Assembly: GCF_035918235.1 (NCBI RefSeq)
Contig: NZ_CP109485.1
Location: 10,075,001-10,139,000 of the forward strand
Length of the DNA: 64,000 nucleotides
Source: Streptomyces sp. NBC_01445
Lineage (GTDB): Bacteria; Actinomycetota; Actinomycetes; Streptomycetales; Streptomycetaceae
Direction of reading: 5' to 3'
The notes under the pieces are model-generated. The model searched no databases and had not been told where the DNA came from. It was given only the letters and a program-made list of their open reading frames with translations. Positions 39,885 to 45,705 of this stretch are shown in pieces; position 1 is the stretch's first letter; each line of letters starts with the position of its first letter. Position numbers and translations under genes: made by a program.

Positions 39885-39937
39885 GATGCGTGCGGTCCAA
39901 AGGGCCCAGGCTGGTGGTACGAGATCAAGTTCGACGG

Positions 39938-41612
39938 TTCTCCAGACACCTCGCGATGTCTCATTCGGGTAGGTCCCGGGGCCGCCCGTAGCTGAGGAAG
40001 GGCGGGAATTGAGGCTTCCAGGAGGAGGCGCGGCGCGAGAGCTACTCAGCGGCAGCCCGGCACCGTCCAGGAGAGAACTCTGGTCACGGCTGCTGCTTCA
40101 TGCGGCCGGCTGAGGCCTGTTGGGCGTCCGCGCCGGAGCTGACGTGTCGTTGGGTCTCCTGCGGGCCGTGCCAGTCCAGGCACATCACAGTGGCGTCGTC
40201 TTCGAGCCGCCCGCCGGCAGCGTCCCGGACTGCGGACGTCAGCATCAATGCGGTCTCCCGCGGGTGCAGGCCCCGGGTGCGCTCCAGCAGGGCAGGCAGG
40301 TCGACCTCCTCCCCGTGCCGTTCGACCATGCCGTCGGTGAACATGAGCAGACGGTCACCATGGCGCAGATCGAGGTCCTGAACACGGTAGGGGATGCTCG
40401 CGAACTCCGACAGCCCGAAGGGATGGTCCACCTCGCAGGTGATCACCTCCACAGCGCCCTCGCGCATGCGCAGTGGCCAGGGGTGTCCCGCGTTGACGAG
40501 CTGGGCCCGCCCAGTGTGGAGATTGATGCGCAGCAGCTGCCCGGTGGCGTGCCCCTGGCCGTGGTCGACGAGTGCCCGGTCGGCCCGGTGGGCCTGTTCG
40601 GCCAGGCCGGCTCCTGCGCGGCGGGCGCCACGCAGGGCGCTCACGAGGACCGTGGCAGCCAGGGCCGCATCGAGGTCGTGCCCCATGGGATCGGTCACCG
40701 ACACGTGCAGTGCGTCCCGGTCCAGGGCGTAGTCGAAGGTGTCGCCGCTGAGGTCTTCCGAAGGCTCCAGGCTCCCGCACAGCGTGAACTGCGCGGCCTC
40801 GCACGACAGAGACGAGGGAAGCAGCTGGTACTGGATTTCCGCTGCCAGGGTGGGCGGTCTGGAGCGTTTGCCCCAGGTGTAGAAGTCGGTGAAACGCCCG
40901 TTGGCGATCACGATGTAGGCCAGGATATGAGCGGCTTCCCCGACCTCATCAAGGACGTCCTCGCCGGGATCGGCCGGCAGCAGCAGTTCCAACAGCCCGA
41001 TCGCATCCCCCCGGTTGGTGACCGGCACGATCACCCGCTGCCCCTGACCGGTCGCCTCTTGATAAAGCCGCTGGGTACGGATCACCTCCTCGTAGGCACT
41101 GCCGAACAAAGGGATCCGTTCCACCTCCCGCCCATCCTCCGCGGGGGCGGTCGACAGCCGCGCCACCGCCTTCCCCGTCAGGTCCACGATGAGGAAAGAG
41201 ACCTTCGTGGCCTCGAAACGCCGCCGCAGGTCCTCCGCGATCACATCGACGGCATCCACCGGCGCCGCCGTCTCCGCTGCCGTCAGCAACCGGGAAAGTC
41301 CACTCTGCCCACCACTCACGACCGCAGTCCCTTCCACCAGCTCCGCCTACCAGCCTGAGAATCACCACAGCGAGCGTTAACACACAAAAGCCACAATAAG
41401 TGCAGATCGCTGCGTTATGTGTTTACGGAAATGAGTTTGTTTCCCGACGTCCGGACGCCGCGGACTCAGCCGCCACGACTACTCCAGCCACGACCCGACA
41501 ACGGGCCGGCCGTCTCCGCCCCGCTGCTGAGCAGCAAAGCCGAGACGCACACAGGCGCCGCAGTCCGTATCGAGGGGCCCATGTCTGATGAGACACGGCA
41601 AAGTCTGGAGAG
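39938..41612. mobile_element. Cargo unit A: SpoIIE-type phosphatase between inverted ends, 6-bp target duplication
   Basis: The left end is TTCTCCAGAC...TGTCTCAT (39,938-39,964); the right end, read inward, is CTCTCCAGAC...TGTCTCAT (41,612-41,588). CGACGG flanks both sides (39,932-39,937 and 41,613-41,618). Removing the unit and one CGACGG restores KFDGHRTVMWR of the ligase in frame. It holds one gene, a PP2C phosphatase, and no transposase. Confidence 0.75.
40084..41319 (-). CDS. SpoIIE/PP2C-family phosphatase carried by cargo unit A
   Basis: About 411 residues. Residues 20-150 resemble a GAF sensor ([19 protein letters not shown]). The phosphatase domain has [53 protein letters not shown] and [10 protein letters not shown]; the metal-binding aspartates are present, with a proline in the usual D-x-MGHD position. 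I prefer the GTG at 41319, with GGAAGGGA upstream; a GTG at 41337 is in frame. It belongs to the same family as the protein at 18717 but is clearly diverged. It probably reverses serine phosphorylation in a sigma-factor partner-switch pathway; no partners are nearby. Confidence 0.87.
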
Positions 41613-41890
41613 CGACGGGCACCGCACCGTCATGTGGCGTGACGCCGAAGCCGTCCTGCTGCAGGCCCGGTTCGGCCGGACGGTCACCTCAGCGTGGATG
41701 GTACTCGCCGTGGCCGGCATGGACTCGCTGCGCCCCGGCACGGTCCTCGACGGCGAGGCAGTGACCTACAACGAGAACCGCGCGGGACTTCAGCAGGATC
41801 TAGCGCGGAACCCCGGGCGTTCACCTCGGGAGGAAGCGCTTCTCTGGACTGCTCTGACCCGCAGGTTCCCACGGGTCCGCACGGTTGGCC

Positions 41891-42323
41891 TCAGCCGGGA
41901 CGTTTCCGGTTCTCGATGTACTCCTTGATGATCGACAGCGGGGCGTGGCGTCCCCGCACGAGGCGGCAAAGTACGAGGGCGACCAGAAGTTGTCACCCCA
42001 GAGGTACGTGCGGATGTGCCCGGGAACTCCTGACGGAGCCTGCGGCCGGAGACGCCCTTGAGGGAGCCGACCAGCCGGGACAGGGAGACCTTCGGCGGGT
42101 AGTGCACCAGCAGGTGCACGTGATCGGTCTCGCCGTTGAACTCGACCAACTCTGTTTCGAAGTCCGCGCAGACGGCGCGCATGGCTTCCTCGCAGCGTCG
42201 AAGGATCTCGTCGGTGAACGGTCCGCGCCGGTACTTGGGTGTGAAGACCAAGTGGGCGTGGAGGTGGTAGACGACCGTGCGACCCCTACGAATATTGGGG
42301 TTTGGCTCCCAGCATGGTGACAT
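41891..42323 (-). pseudogene. tnpA: tnpA (HUH Y1 transposase), frameshifted
   Basis: The start reads RRGRTVVYHLHAHLVFTPKY, and the HUH motif is intact in GETDHVHLLVHYPP. After RRLRQEFPG one base is missing; the continuing frame reads HIRTYLWGDNFWSPSYFAAS, which carries the nucleophile tyrosine, and another indel precedes LSIIKEYIENRKRPG. Intact relatives are about 135-145 residues. Two lost bases mean the encoded protein would be truncated, so this element probably cannot move itself. Confidence 0.8.
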
Positions 42324-42343
42324 AGGTCGATACGATCGCCCGC

Positions 42344-43501
42344 GTGAAGATCGTCGTGCAAGTGAAGTTGATGCCGGAGGCCGTGCAGGCATCCGCGCTG
42401 TCGGTGACGCTGCGCACGGTCAACGAGGCCGCGAACTGGGTGTCGGAGGTGGCGTTCGAGCACGGTGTCCCGCGTGAGTACGAGCTGCGCAAGCACACCT
42501 ACGGTGAACTGCGGTCGCGGGGACTGGGGGCGCAGGCAGCCCAGCACATCATCAAGAAGACCCGCGATGCCTACACGACGCTCAGGGCCAACATTCGCGC
42601 CGGGAACCTCGGCAAGTCTGGATCGAAGCGCCGTACCAAGGCCGAGTCCAAGCCCATCGCTTTTAGGCCCGAGGCCGCGCAACCGTATGACGACCGGTGT
42701 TTGAGCTGGCAGTACGACGCGCAGACCGTGTCCATCTGGACGGTGGACGGCCGGGCCAAGAACGTCCGGTTCGCCTGCTCGTCTGACGCACTCAAGACGC
42801 TGCGGGACCACCGGCAGGGCGAGTCGGACCTGATTGAACGCGACGGCGTGTTCTACCTGCTCGCGACGTGTGACGTTCCCGAGGCTGAGCAGTACGAGCC
42901 CGACCACTTCATCGGCGTGGACCTGGGAATCGCCAACATCGCCACCACATCCACCGGCCACAAGACCGCCGGGCGTGGCCTGAACCGCCACCGCAAGCGG
43001 CAACTCGACCTGCGCAGGAAACTCCAGGCCAAGGGCACCAAGTCCGCCAAGCGGCTGTTGAAGAAGCGCAGCCGGCGCGAACAGCGCCACGCGAAGGACC
43101 AGAACCACATCATCGCCAAGACGATCGTGACCGAGGCTGAACGCACCTCGGCCGGGATCTCCCTGGAAGAACTCAAGGGAATCCGGCAGAGGGTACGGCT
43201 CCGTAAGCCCCAACGGGTCGCGCTCCACTCCTGGGCCTTTGCCCAGCTGGCAGACTTCATCGTCTACAAGGCCCGCAGGGCCGGCGTCCCCGTGGTCTTC
43301 GTCGATCCCGCCTACACCTCGCAGCAGTGCTGCGAGTGCGGCCACATCGACAAGAAGAACCGGGCAAGCCAAGCCCTGTTCACCTGCCTCAACTGCGGGG
43401 TCGTTGCCCACGCAGACCAAAACGCTTCCCACAACATCGCCCGCAAGGGCGAGGCTGTGTGGACTGCGGGGCGTGAGTCACGCGTCCCTGCCACCCCATA
43501 A
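42344..43501 (+). CDS. tnpB: TnpB RNA-guided endonuclease of the IS605 element
   Basis: A complete 385-residue TnpB, roughly half identical to the copies at 33.8 and 48.8 kb. RuvC residues are D193 (FIGVDLGIAN), E275 (GISLEEL) and D358 (AHADQNASHN). The zinc ribbon is CCEC...CLNC (C329, C332, C348, C351). The GTG at 42344 lies 20 bp from the divergent tnpA start. The guide RNA would run out of the right end into CGCTGCGCAGTCCCGCGCG of the ligase. Confidence 0.9.
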   Translation: MKIVVQVKLMPEAVQASALSVTLRTVNEAANWVSEVAFEHGVPREYELRKHTYGELRSRGLGAQAAQHIIKKTRDAYTTLRANIRAGNLGKSGSKRRTKAESKPIAFRPEAAQPYDDRCLSWQYDAQTVSIWTVDGRAKNVRFACSSDALKTLRDHRQGESDLIERDGVFYLLATCDVPEAEQYEPDHFIGVDLGIANIATTSTGHKTAGRGLNRHRKRQLDLRRKLQAKGTKSAKRLLKKRSRREQRHAKDQNHIIAKTIVTEAERTSAGISLEELKGIRQRVRLRKPQRVALHSWAFAQLADFIVYKARRAGVPVVFVDPAYTSQQCCECGHIDKKNRASQALFTCLNCGVVAHADQNASHNIARKGEAVWTAGRESRVPATP

Positions 43502-43963
43502 GGGTGACTGGACGGAGGAGCCCACCCAGCAGCCAGTTGGACGCTACCTCCAAGCCCGGTCCTTTAGGGCCGGGTCAAGTTGACCGCTGCGCAGTCCCGC
43601 GCGAACTCAGGGCTAGCCCGTGCGAGGGAGCTCGCTGCGTTCCTCCCTGCCTCCTACGCCGTGTTCGATGTCCTCGCCCGCGACGGCCAGGACGTCCGCG
43701 GGCATCCCTACACCGAGCGCCCGGGCCCGGCTTCTTGATCTGCTTCACGATGTGCCGCCTCCGATGCAAGCCGTCCCGGCTGCCGACGATCCTGATGTCG
43801 CGCAGCTTTGGTATGTCACGCTCCGGGACCAGGGTTCTCCAGACGCTTCGAATGTGTCTCGGAAAGTCTGCAAGGCAGGTCGAGGCGTACGTCTGCTTCG
43901 GCGACCCATGTTCGAGCGGTGGTCGCCGTCCGGCCCGGCCGCTTGGCCCGATCGGCGTCTTGG

Positions 43964-44563
43964 TCACTTCGAGCCGTAGTACAGCCGGAGGAAGTCTTCC
44001 ATCGCCGCGTTGACGCCATCGCGGTCACCGGTGGCGAGCAGGTCGAGGAGCAGGCCGCGGACGGTGGCGAGTCCCAGTCTGGCGCGGTTCCGGGCCGCGG
44101 CGGGGTCCGTCCCTGTGGCGACCTCGGCGGCCACGAGCGGCTCCAGCCAGTCGTTTACGAGCCCTTCGAGGACCGGGGCGGCCTCGGGACGGCCTCGCAG
44201 CGCCTGCGCGTAGATTTCGAAGAAGAGCCGCTCTTGGCTGGCCAGTCGGGGGTCCGTCAGCTGCTGCCAGAGGAGACGCGCAGTATCGACGGGCGAGAGG
44301 CCGGGTTGCAGGCGCAGCTGGGACAGCAGATCGCGTTGGCGCTGCTCCGATGTCCGGACGATCTCGACGAGCAGGTGTTCCTTGGAGCCGAAGTAGTGGA
44401 TCAGCATGCGGTGACTGACGCCGATCGCGGCGCCCAGGCCGCGCAGGCTCAGGTCTGCGATGCCGTGTGCCGCGACGTGGTCGACGGCCGCGTTCACCAA
44501 TTGAGCGCGCCGGTCCCCGTCCTTGCCGGGTACTGCCTCGCCCTCAGGATCTGAGCCGACCAT
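43964..44563 (-). CDS. TetR family regulator in cargo unit B
   Basis: A 199-residue regulator. The helix-turn-helix reads AVDHVAAHGIADLSLRGLGA and IGVSHRMLIHYFGSKEHLLV, with a C-terminal TetR ligand domain. The start at 44563 (MVGSDPEGEAV) fits the family; an open frame extends upstream through the operators. It is divergent from the SRPBCC gene, with two matching palindromes between them, so it almost certainly represses that gene and itself. Confidence 0.9.
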   Translation of the reverse strand: MVGSDPEGEAVPGKDGDRRAQLVNAAVDHVAAHGIADLSLRGLGAAIGVSHRMLIHYFGSKEHLLVEIVRTSEQRQRDLLSQLRLQPGLSPVDTARLLWQQLTDPRLASQERLFFEIYAQALRGRPEAAPVLEGLVNDWLEPLVAAEVATGTDPAAARNRARLGLATVRGLLLDLLATGDRDGVNAAMEDFLRLYYGSK

Positions 44564-44580
44564 ATGCACCACCGCACGAG

Positions 44581-44619
44581 TGTACCAATTGGTACATGCC
44601 CTGTGTACCGTGTGGTACA
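44581..44619. promoter_or_regulatory. Tandem TGTACC-N4-GGTACA operators
   Basis: Site 1 (44,581-44,596) TGTACCAATTGGTACA is a perfect 16-bp palindrome. Site 2 (44,604-44,619) TGTACCGTGTGGTACA has the same arms. Centres are 23 bp apart. The last base of site 2 is the A of the SRPBCC start codon. Confidence 0.85.
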
Positions 44620-45083
44620 TGAAGTCTGTCACCGTGTCGATCGACGTACCGCAGACGCCCGAGCAGGTCTACGACTTCCTCGATGTCATGGCTCACCACG
44701 AGCGATTCACCGACCACTACCTGACCGACTGGCGCTACAGCGGCCCCGGCCGCGGCATCGGATCGTGTGCCACGGTCACAGCCGCGCTGGGCGGCACGAA
44801 GACCGACGTCGCCATCGAGGTCGTCGAGGCAGACCCGCCGCGGCGCATCGTCGAACGGAACGTCAGCGCGGCCGGCCGACGCCTGGCCCACGGCACCTAC
44901 ACCATCGAGCCGCTGCGAACCGGCGGGAGTCACGTGTCGTTCACGTACGCCTGGGCCCACACCCCACTCGCCGACCGCCTGCTGACACTCGTCGTCCGGG
45001 CCACGATAAGACGCGCCAACCGGACGGTCATGCGACGCCTGGCCACCGAGTTGGCTCGCCACGCGTCCGCTGCCGGATCCTGA
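44619..45083 (+). CDS. SRPBCC (START-like) family protein
   Basis: A 154-residue protein with the polyketide-cyclase/dehydrase fold pattern: MKSVTVSIDVPQTPEQVYDF at the start, IEVVEADPPRRIVERNVSA in the middle and a long C-terminal helix. Such proteins bind hydrophobic ligands in a cavity. The start codon touches the second operator and there is no ribosome site, so the mRNA is probably leaderless and fully blocked when the TetR protein is bound. Ligand unknown; it may be the same molecule that the regulator senses. Confidence 0.83.
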   Translation: MKSVTVSIDVPQTPEQVYDFLDVMAHHERFTDHYLTDWRYSGPGRGIGSCATVTAALGGTKTDVAIEVVEADPPRRIVERNVSAAGRRLAHGTYTIEPLRTGGSHVSFTYAWAHTPLADRLLTLVVRATIRRANRTVMRRLATELARHASAAGS

Positions 45084-45705
45084 CGTCAGTACATGTCGGG
45101 CCTTCTGCCCGACGAAGCTGCGCACAGATGTCTCATGAGACATGGCTCAGTCTGGAGAACGACGGTGACCGCGCCGCGGTGTGGCGGTCGGCGTCGGGGG
45201 AGCGGGTGCAGCCCTCCAGCAGCCCTGCAGAGCGACACGAACGCCCGCCTCAGCGGGACGTTGGATCCCGCGCTGATCCAACTCAATGAGACGCGACCAG
45301 TGCGGGACACACCACTGCGCAATCAGCCAGGGCGTCGAGGGCGTCGTGCGCAAGCGGGCTTCTTCCCCGTACCGGACAGGGCACATCTGGCAGAAGGTGC
45401 GCCACTCGGACACGGTCGACACGGACGTGGTCGGGTCCAGGACCGGCTGGCGCGGCTGGGTGCGGACGGGGTCGTGATGGATGATCTGGATGCGCCATCG
45501 GTCGGTGAGGCGGTGGCCGAGGCCGGCCTGATGTGATCGTGCACCAGATGACCGCGACCGCATCATGCTGCAAGGCGGGGTGACCGGGCAGTTTCGGGAG
45601 GTCGGCCAGCCCCAACTGCTCAGTGGAGCCTGGTCCGTCACACTGCCCCTTCCACGGATAGCATCACGTGTCCCTGTCCTCTGCTCATGTCGCTGGAGTC
45701 CCCCC

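Follow-up and report, generated by a model that had tools for sequence, protein, structure and literature searches.

Integron gene cassettes are single-gene units moved by a recombinase that is encoded elsewhere. SEs and GInts, in turn, are recent and little-studied classes of mobile elements. SEs have been reported in Gammaproteobacteria only and have a median size of 15.7 kb; the 6 bp beside one of their ends (attR) come from the left flank of the donor, recombination between attL and attR leaves no empty site, and their Tfp protein was modelled on XerH (5JJV), according to the passages of PMC10214605 that deal with these points; a text search of that paper returned neither "autonomous" nor "non-autonomous". 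The Results and Discussion of PMC5385486 contain no GInts from Streptomyces. Actinobacteria are known to harbour Tn554-like elements, one of them on a plasmid of Streptomyces coelicolor, and section 10 of the review concerned describes no recombinase-less Tn554 cassettes (PMC3414803). Here we describe a 1.7-kb unit (unit 1, positions 39938..41612) that carries a SpoIIE-type phosphatase gene in a 64-kb stretch of the genome of Streptomyces sp. NBC_01445 (contig NZ_CP109485.1; hereafter the window), together with its relatives in the genus. We consider it likely that unit 1 belongs, as a non-autonomous gene cassette, to a Streptomyces family of tyrosine-recombinase elements and moves with enzymes supplied in trans by a full element. 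Such cassettes are a possible route for single genes to spread among Streptomyces outside integrons and insertion sequence (IS) elements.

A cassette in the catalytic codons of a DNA ligase gene

The window lies close to one end of a 10.4-Mb contig in a genome of 11.5 Mb, the other contig being 1.0 Mb. Unit 1 is bounded by imperfect terminal inverted repeats (TTCTCCAGAC...TGTCTCAT versus ATGAGACA...GTCTGGAGAA). Its left end, TTCTCCAGAC-n9-TGTCTCAT, occupies 39938..39964 on the plus strand, as placed by the end motif and a consensus over 26 ends; its right end, TGTCTgATGAGACA-n7-GTCTGGAGAg (consensus TGTCTCATGAGACA-n7-GTCTGGAGAA), occupies 41582..41612 on the same strand, and the right-end motif within it, ATGAGACA-n7-GTCTGGAGAG, has 41612 as its final base. 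The only gene in between (40084..41337, minus strand) is intact and encodes a SpoIIE-type PP2C phosphatase of 417 amino acids (Pfam SpoIIE, E 1e-36). No trace of a recombinase was detected within unit 1 at tblastn E<=1e-3: none of the four genes intA, tfp, intB and srap is present, and neither is a ginABCD operon or tnpA/tnpB/tnpC. The initial annotation had proposed inverted ends, a flanking CGACGG, one SpoIIE gene and no movement gene at 39938-41612, all of which were borne out. It had also named the product a PP2C/GAF phosphatase, which holds for the SpoIIE-type PP2C domain and fails for GAF, a domain that Pfam did not report at E<=0.001.

The hexamer CGACGG abuts unit 1 on both sides (39932-39937 and 41613-41618). 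The left copy constitutes the final six bases of the N-terminal remnant of an ATP-dependent DNA ligase gene, ...GPKGPGWWYEIKFDG, which extends up to the catalytic KxDG codons (39894..39937, start approximate, plus strand; translation, and tblastn with a paralogue fragment at E 7e-7). The right copy opens the ligase sequence that follows, DGHRTVMWRDAEAVLLQARFGRTVT...GTVLDGEAVTYNENR (41613..41799, end approximate, plus strand; translation, tblastn E 4e-33). Translated, the flanks read ...GPGWWYEIKFDG upstream and DGHRTVMWRDAEAVLLQ... downstream, that is, one ligase split at KxDG. Three paralogous ligases of the same genome have an uninterrupted GAGATCAAGTTCGACGGGCACCGCACCGT with a single CGACGG and represent the empty site, and the flanks of unit 1, when joined, align to one paralogous ligase over 170 of 181 bases. 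End patterns searched in the window with up to three mismatches gave two matches (0.47 expected) and one match (0.11 expected); the window on its own is weak evidence for the end motifs, whereas the genome-wide counts given below are not. The right end (window 41580-41620, and many others) can be read in frame as ATG TCT CAT GAG ACA nnn nnn AGT CTG GAG AAn, and could thereby give the C-terminal ligase half a start codon (MSHETxxSLExDG...).

Related units in Streptomyces

Without any constraint on the target and with at most one mismatch, the right-end pattern matched at 51 sites, which are distributed over 39 of the 392 Streptomyces genomes searched; the reversed pattern, used as a control on the same genomes, matched none. 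In a class-wide search 4 of 296 genomes matched, three of them from Streptomyces and one from elsewhere with a single one-mismatch site, which is taken for chance. Some other right-end matches, such as L206, may be chance as well. All 45 right-end sites outside the window genome were retrieved for a left-end scan, and both ends were present at 19 of them, a number that includes copies from the same genome, two loci that duplicate other records and one element with its left end at a distance of 21.6 kb. Copies that repeated a right end together with its flank were skipped (L200, identical to L095; L207, to L084; and L229, L225 and L220, copies of L227, L224 and L210, respectively). The resulting table of 25 complete units counts each unit once, without duplicates, adds five plasmid units and leaves out an inner unit of locus L214; this inner unit is included in the 26 rows of the end consensus. 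Two broader searches were discarded. A first collection pattern that included the ligase flank retrieved mostly an LEIDGNR coding sequence, presumably that of a dehydrogenase (by end motif, 5 of the 90 stretches were real), and a genus search with two mismatches matched 373 of the 392 genomes and was uninformative, the same coding sequence being responsible.

Nineteen of the 25 complete units, from 545 bp to 4.6 kb in size, lack the recombinase operon and six carry it; the latter were partly found through an intA search, so that 6 to 19 is not a natural frequency. The right-end pattern alone yielded two complete units with the operon (L214 and G355). No operon trace was detected at tblastn E<=1e-3 in 17 of the 19 recombinase-less units, while L199 and L209 hold remnants. 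Translated flanks show KxDG, or a decayed form of it, on the left and DG on the right in 19 of the 25 units. With one ligase fragment as tblastn query, the right flank is a ligase at E<=1e-3 in 16 units, and the ligase assignment of L193, L203 and G355 is mainly motif-based. Insertions into ligase KxDG codons comprise 17 of the 19 recombinase-less and two of the six operon-bearing units. A different site, by eye in a membrane-protein gene, is common to L214 and the plasmid elements L330 and L331; insertions of the family thus concentrate at a few selected sites.

The ligase was rejected as the target of every related element: the flank of L271, first read as a reversed ligase site, is by eye elongation factor G. 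Like L271, other loci of operon clades among L264-L283 have other terminal sequences, and by eye they are inserted in a comEC-like motif (L270, L273, L277-L280). The docks thus seem to be conserved motif codons, in a gene that varies with the clade. Right flanks of L191, L197, L219 and L333 by eye share yet another target sequence, which in L333 adjoins a gene annotated dnaE; the left end of the L333 element was not found.

The initial annotation missed the targeted insertion into ligase KxDG codons and described CGACGG as a 6-bp target duplication. The repeat does stand on both sides of unit 1, but it is part of the ligase reading frame, and in the family the two 6-bp flanks are identical in only 12 of the 25 units, match at five of six positions in ten and at four of six in three. 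These mismatches can be explained by donor-derived 6 bp as in SEs, and also by decay. By eye they lean to codon third positions, in a sample too small for a claim.

Pfam identified various cargo in the recombinase-less units. The SpoIIE phosphatase occurs in six of the 19 and is one cargo among many; the earlier idea of a non-autonomous cassette held up, and the cassette has relatives bearing other cargo. Other units carry a TetR regulator with a Polyketide_cyc2 protein, a 4HBT thioesterase with a TetR regulator, a LysE translocator, an FAD_binding_3 monooxygenase, a methyltransferase, an ALF-repeat protein, or an MMPL transporter with a histidine kinase and a response regulator. Proteins of L038, L095 and L212 matched no Pfam family at E<=0.01; the survey left out L084, L193 and one of the two L224 genes. 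One 1.1-kb cassette was seen three times in a single assembly (G000:C1:106420, C1:10326926 and C2:106418), apparently from terminal regions common to the chromosome and the second contig.

Operon-bearing sister elements

All six complete elements that combine the same ends with movement genes encode tyrosine recombinases. L214 and L329-L332 have four genes, in intA-tfp-intB-srap order as judged by length; in G355, another of the six, the third gene is split. From the recombinase residues of L214 and its relatives and the recombinase fold in L214, the operon consists of two recombinases with the catalytic R..HxxR..H..Y set, one recombinase-fold protein with an incomplete set and one small protein. 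Among twelve second (Tfp-like) proteins the His of HxxR is replaced by Asp in eight and kept in four, the first Arg is replaced in ten, and none has both residues. The best fold match of the second protein is XerH (5JJV). Profile searches against solved structures returned no recombinase for the second protein (one match, E 0.87) and no match for the third; the first protein matched XerD at E 7e-4, ranked below a chain labelled otherwise.

Cargo of the operon-bearing elements is a RelA_SpoT protein or, as annotated, an MFS transporter, a GntR regulator and a DUF6191 protein. The latter set is found on plasmid NZ_CP108672.1 of Streptomyces sp. NBC_01023, in an 8.8-kb element with all four operon genes at a ligase KxDG site. 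The element of NBC_00455 resembles it in cargo and right end (2853 bp, 91.5% identical), whereas the operons are only 71% identical, which suggests that cargo modules change recombinase lineage. Streptomyces avidinii NBC_01157 (NZ_CP108618.1) and NBC_00998 (NZ_CP108721.1) share a 7305-bp element; its two copies are 99.92% identical, have the same exact ends and occupy different sites. This pair provides good evidence for movement of the unit that these ends enclose. Although the 6-bp flanks differ in 13 of the 25 units, those of this pair match at both sites.

Two of the operon-bearing loci are of composite structure. In the 21.6-kb element of G355:C1 (L264/L265) about 13 kb of other DNA splits the third recombinase gene. 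L214 (6606-13853) has two left ends and a single right end common to both: one left end is the operon's own, the other is 1.25 kb further upstream, and a gene separates them. The outer flanks nearly match (AATGGG/AGTGGG). This double left end may show how cargo is captured.

SpoIIE cassettes and deletion derivatives

The SpoIIE cassette was found in five genomes, with 82-96% identity over the aligned parts and no operon traces at tblastn E<=1e-3. The copies in the window, L203 and L227 align over the whole length; for L232 and L234 the alignment spans about 1.45 kb out of 1.6 kb, together with the right terminus. Among the ten pairs formed by these five copies, a flank alignment at E<=1e-3 was obtained only for the window and L227; translation of the others shows different ligases. 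Plasmid pRLB1-9.2 carries a sixth copy, with a full-length match (90%); the gene next to it is annotated as DNA ligase, and its product has a match to the ligase domain. Right ends of two further SpoIIE copies, L335 and L336, were not found. The recombinase-less SpoIIE form itself thus seems to have reached several genes; since their flanks cannot be aligned, this is a likelier course than homologous exchange among the ligases. In the cassettes, purifying selection acts on the SpoIIE gene, as indicated by dN/dS ratios of 0.08-0.24 in 15 non-independent pairs of the six copies. Related SpoIIE genes in other genomes match within the gene only (e.g. positions 141-1424), so that the SpoIIE gene of the cassette was probably an ordinary one before its uptake.

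Several recombinase-less units retain parts of a full element. The first 500 bp of L199 are 87% identical to the G355 element; they are followed by an intA relic (codons 1-126, in two frames) that is fused to codons 102-138 of srap, and beyond these by a methyltransferase gene and the right end. L209 retains intA codons 1-46, and the first 80-130 bp of L084 and L198 are common with G355. This likeness to the full element indicates that some of the cassettes, at least, derive from full elements by internal deletion.

Proposed movement and alternative explanations

A full member of the family would consist of an intA-tfp-intB-srap-type operon followed by cargo, between TTCTCCAGAC-n7..10-TGTCTCA and TGTCTCATGAGACA-n7-GTCTGGAGAA. 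Its enzymes would form a circle in which both ends are joined across a 6-bp core, GTCTGGAGAA-N6-TTCTCCAGAC, built like the core site of Xer/dif. The circle would then be inserted where the target offers a 6-bp core that matches; this is usually xGACGG, within the KxDG codons of an ATP-dependent DNA ligase. Cassettes would originate by deletion of the recombinase operon with retention of the ends and the cargo, and would then move with enzymes from a full element in the same cell. Of this scheme, the ends, the cargo, the target, the operon, the deletion derivative and the recurrence of a recombinase-less form in different ligase genes have direct support; the circle intermediate, the action in trans and the strand chemistry are what we infer from them. 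An enzyme acting in trans had already been suggested in the initial annotation. Mobilisation in trans is still the best inference, but the proposed IS transposase is not, since six operon-bearing relatives carry tyrosine recombinases.

Several observations weigh against this scheme. The case for movement of the cassettes comes from sequence comparison, in which no mobilisation was observed. Four of the six operon-bearing elements lie outside ligases, and 26 of the 45 right ends outside the window genome have no left end in the stretch searched; a looser scan of 25 of these loci (all but L220) gave only weak matches as judged by eye, and such one-ended copies are relics or have diverged left ends. 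No match to intA was obtained in the window genome at E<=1e-50, in a search that scored 4 of the 18 first-look candidates, so that unit 1 may be stranded there; its copies in that genome would then have come from, or moved with, an element since gone. Similarly, the matching flanks of the 99.92% identical pair are not predicted by the donor-fingerprint rule of SEs, if one copy derives from the other. Finally, SE strains complemented with intA or intB did not regain recombination, as stated in the part of PMC10214605 on these strains, which speaks against easy action in trans.

The absence of an intA match is also what would be expected if each recombinase-less unit were a dead relic, left by a full element that inserted and lost its operon in place, with nothing moving in trans. 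The operon remnants of L199 and L209 and the many solo right ends and broken ligases fit this explanation. It is nonetheless improbable: the six SpoIIE copies have the same interior and no operon trace, whereas independent losses would leave different interiors; apart from the window and L227, the flanks of the five copies compared cannot be aligned and were read as different ligases; and 17 of 19 units are free of operon traces. We regard as very unlikely a DDE-type transposon or a miniature inverted-repeat transposable element that duplicates 6 bp of its target and depends on a transposase in trans. The terminal inverted repeats fit such an element, as do the 6-bp repeats, which agree fully in 12 of 25 units and at either site of the near-identical pair, but all six complete elements with movement genes have a tyrosine-recombinase operon, the 6-bp repeats differ in 13 of 25 units, and 19 of 25 insertions lie in one gene motif. 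The IS/DDE reading was set aside, no DDE transposase having been noticed between the ends of the 25 units, for which no DDE profile search was run. A known IS that had lost its transposase at this one locus, without other cargo copies, is not what was found; the search for the ends in other Streptomyces genomes recovered units with varied cargo and full-length elements with the same ends. Least probable of all is an integron-like system, in which an IntI-like integrase places cassettes with attC-type sites at a fixed dock. The units recall such a system in being small, in carrying one or two unrelated genes and in having a common recombination site and a preferred dock, but the ends are inverted and stand on both sides, the partner enzymes are encoded by a four-gene operon within sister elements and not by an integrase beside the dock, and no head-to-tail arrays were found: 345 sequences contained no true tandem junction, and none of eight fuzzy matches has two real ends by eye.

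Returning to cassettes mobilised by full elements, the natural occurrence of a whole set of units that share these ends and lack a recombinase suggests that action in trans works, and the cassettes, the smallest of 545 bp, are short ready-made substrates for testing it. Single genes seem to be passed between bacteria by borrowing the recombinases of other elements, and in the SpoIIE case the spreading gene is one under purifying selection. A wider picture, which we put forward tentatively and would not yet favour over its negation, is that Streptomyces has a dispersed, integron-like cassette economy. An SE/GInt-type operon of a minority of elements, on plasmids and chromosomes, might act in trans on a larger pool of cassettes, mostly of one or two genes, which would have the catalytic codons of dispensable ATP-dependent DNA ligases as their common dock and have their cargo swapped between recombinase lineages.

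Neighbouring insertions in the window

The ligase gene split by unit 1 contains further insertions. An IS200/IS605-type element (41800..43581, limits approximate) has a Y1 transposase gene on the minus strand and a TnpB-like gene on the plus strand (Pfam Y1_Tnp, E 3e-27; Cas12f1-like_TNB, E 7e-22). The ligase continues on the plus strand at 43582..43834 (...ELAAFLPASYAVFDVLARDGQDVRGHPYTER...WYVTLRDQG, translation by eye), with one frameshift, as far as the left CCAGGG of unit 2. Unit 2 (43835..45159, plus strand; end motifs and Pfam) is a second cassette with the same ends, 2.2 kb from unit 1, with 6-bp flanks CCAGGG and CGACGG; its left and right flanks are from different parts of ligase genes. 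Its cargo comprises a TetR regulator (43964-44632, minus strand) and a Polyketide_cyc2 protein (44523 or 44620 to 45083, plus strand), both by Pfam. Downstream, at 45160..45320 on the plus strand, is a fragment of another ligase, DGDRAAVWRSASGERVQ... (translation by eye; tblastn only E 0.008), and the first ligase picks up again near 45320 (QGVEGVVRKRASSPYR..., translation by eye). The cassette family accounts for some of the broken ligase genes of the window genome. Two other accessory ligases, L301 (C1:126203) and L302 (C1:353165), have a break in the same position, ...LPASYA|TG..., which lies downstream of the empty KxDG site, as if another element had caused it.

Comparison with known systems

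Like integron cassettes, the units described here are single-gene units moved, as we propose, by a recombinase encoded elsewhere; unlike them, they were found in no arrays, have inverted ends on both sides and have their recombinases in sister elements. This comparison covers organisation. With SEs, as far as the relevant parts of PMC10214605 describe them, the family shares the operon order in sister elements (a recombinase, a recombinase-fold protein without the catalytic residues, a long recombinase and a small protein), imperfect inverted ends, a 6-bp core and few selected targets; the likeness was judged by gene order, lengths, residues and fold. Unit 1 differs from SEs in having no recombinase genes and in its size, 1.7 kb against the SE median. 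A ginABCD-like operon is present in six of the 25 units, and GInts, in the parts of PMC5385486 concerned, similarly have three integrase-like genes and a small TnpC-like protein at one end with cargo behind, imperfect flanking repeats, 6-nt staggered cuts and high target specificity. However, GInts are defined by their operon and have cargo of 2.5-70 kb, and it is their third protein, GinC, that is without the first catalytic arginine, whereas here the second protein is incomplete (PMC5385486). Tn554 and Tn554-like elements are likewise site-specific tyrosine-recombinase transposons, with TnpA, TnpB and TnpC; they have two recombinases and TnpC and no recombinase-fold protein in the passages of PMC3414803 used, whereas the sister operons have that extra gene, a comparison made by gene content.

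Among the titles and abstracts returned by searches of the open-licence literature we found no description of recombinase-less SE, GInt or Tn554 cassettes, or of the ligase target. Not found in print in these searches, and in this sense new, are a population of cassettes that share their ends, lack a recombinase and mostly carry one or two genes, and the use of ligase catalytic codons as their dock. The operon-bearing elements are of an already known kind and resemble SEs, GInts and actinobacterial Tn554-like elements.
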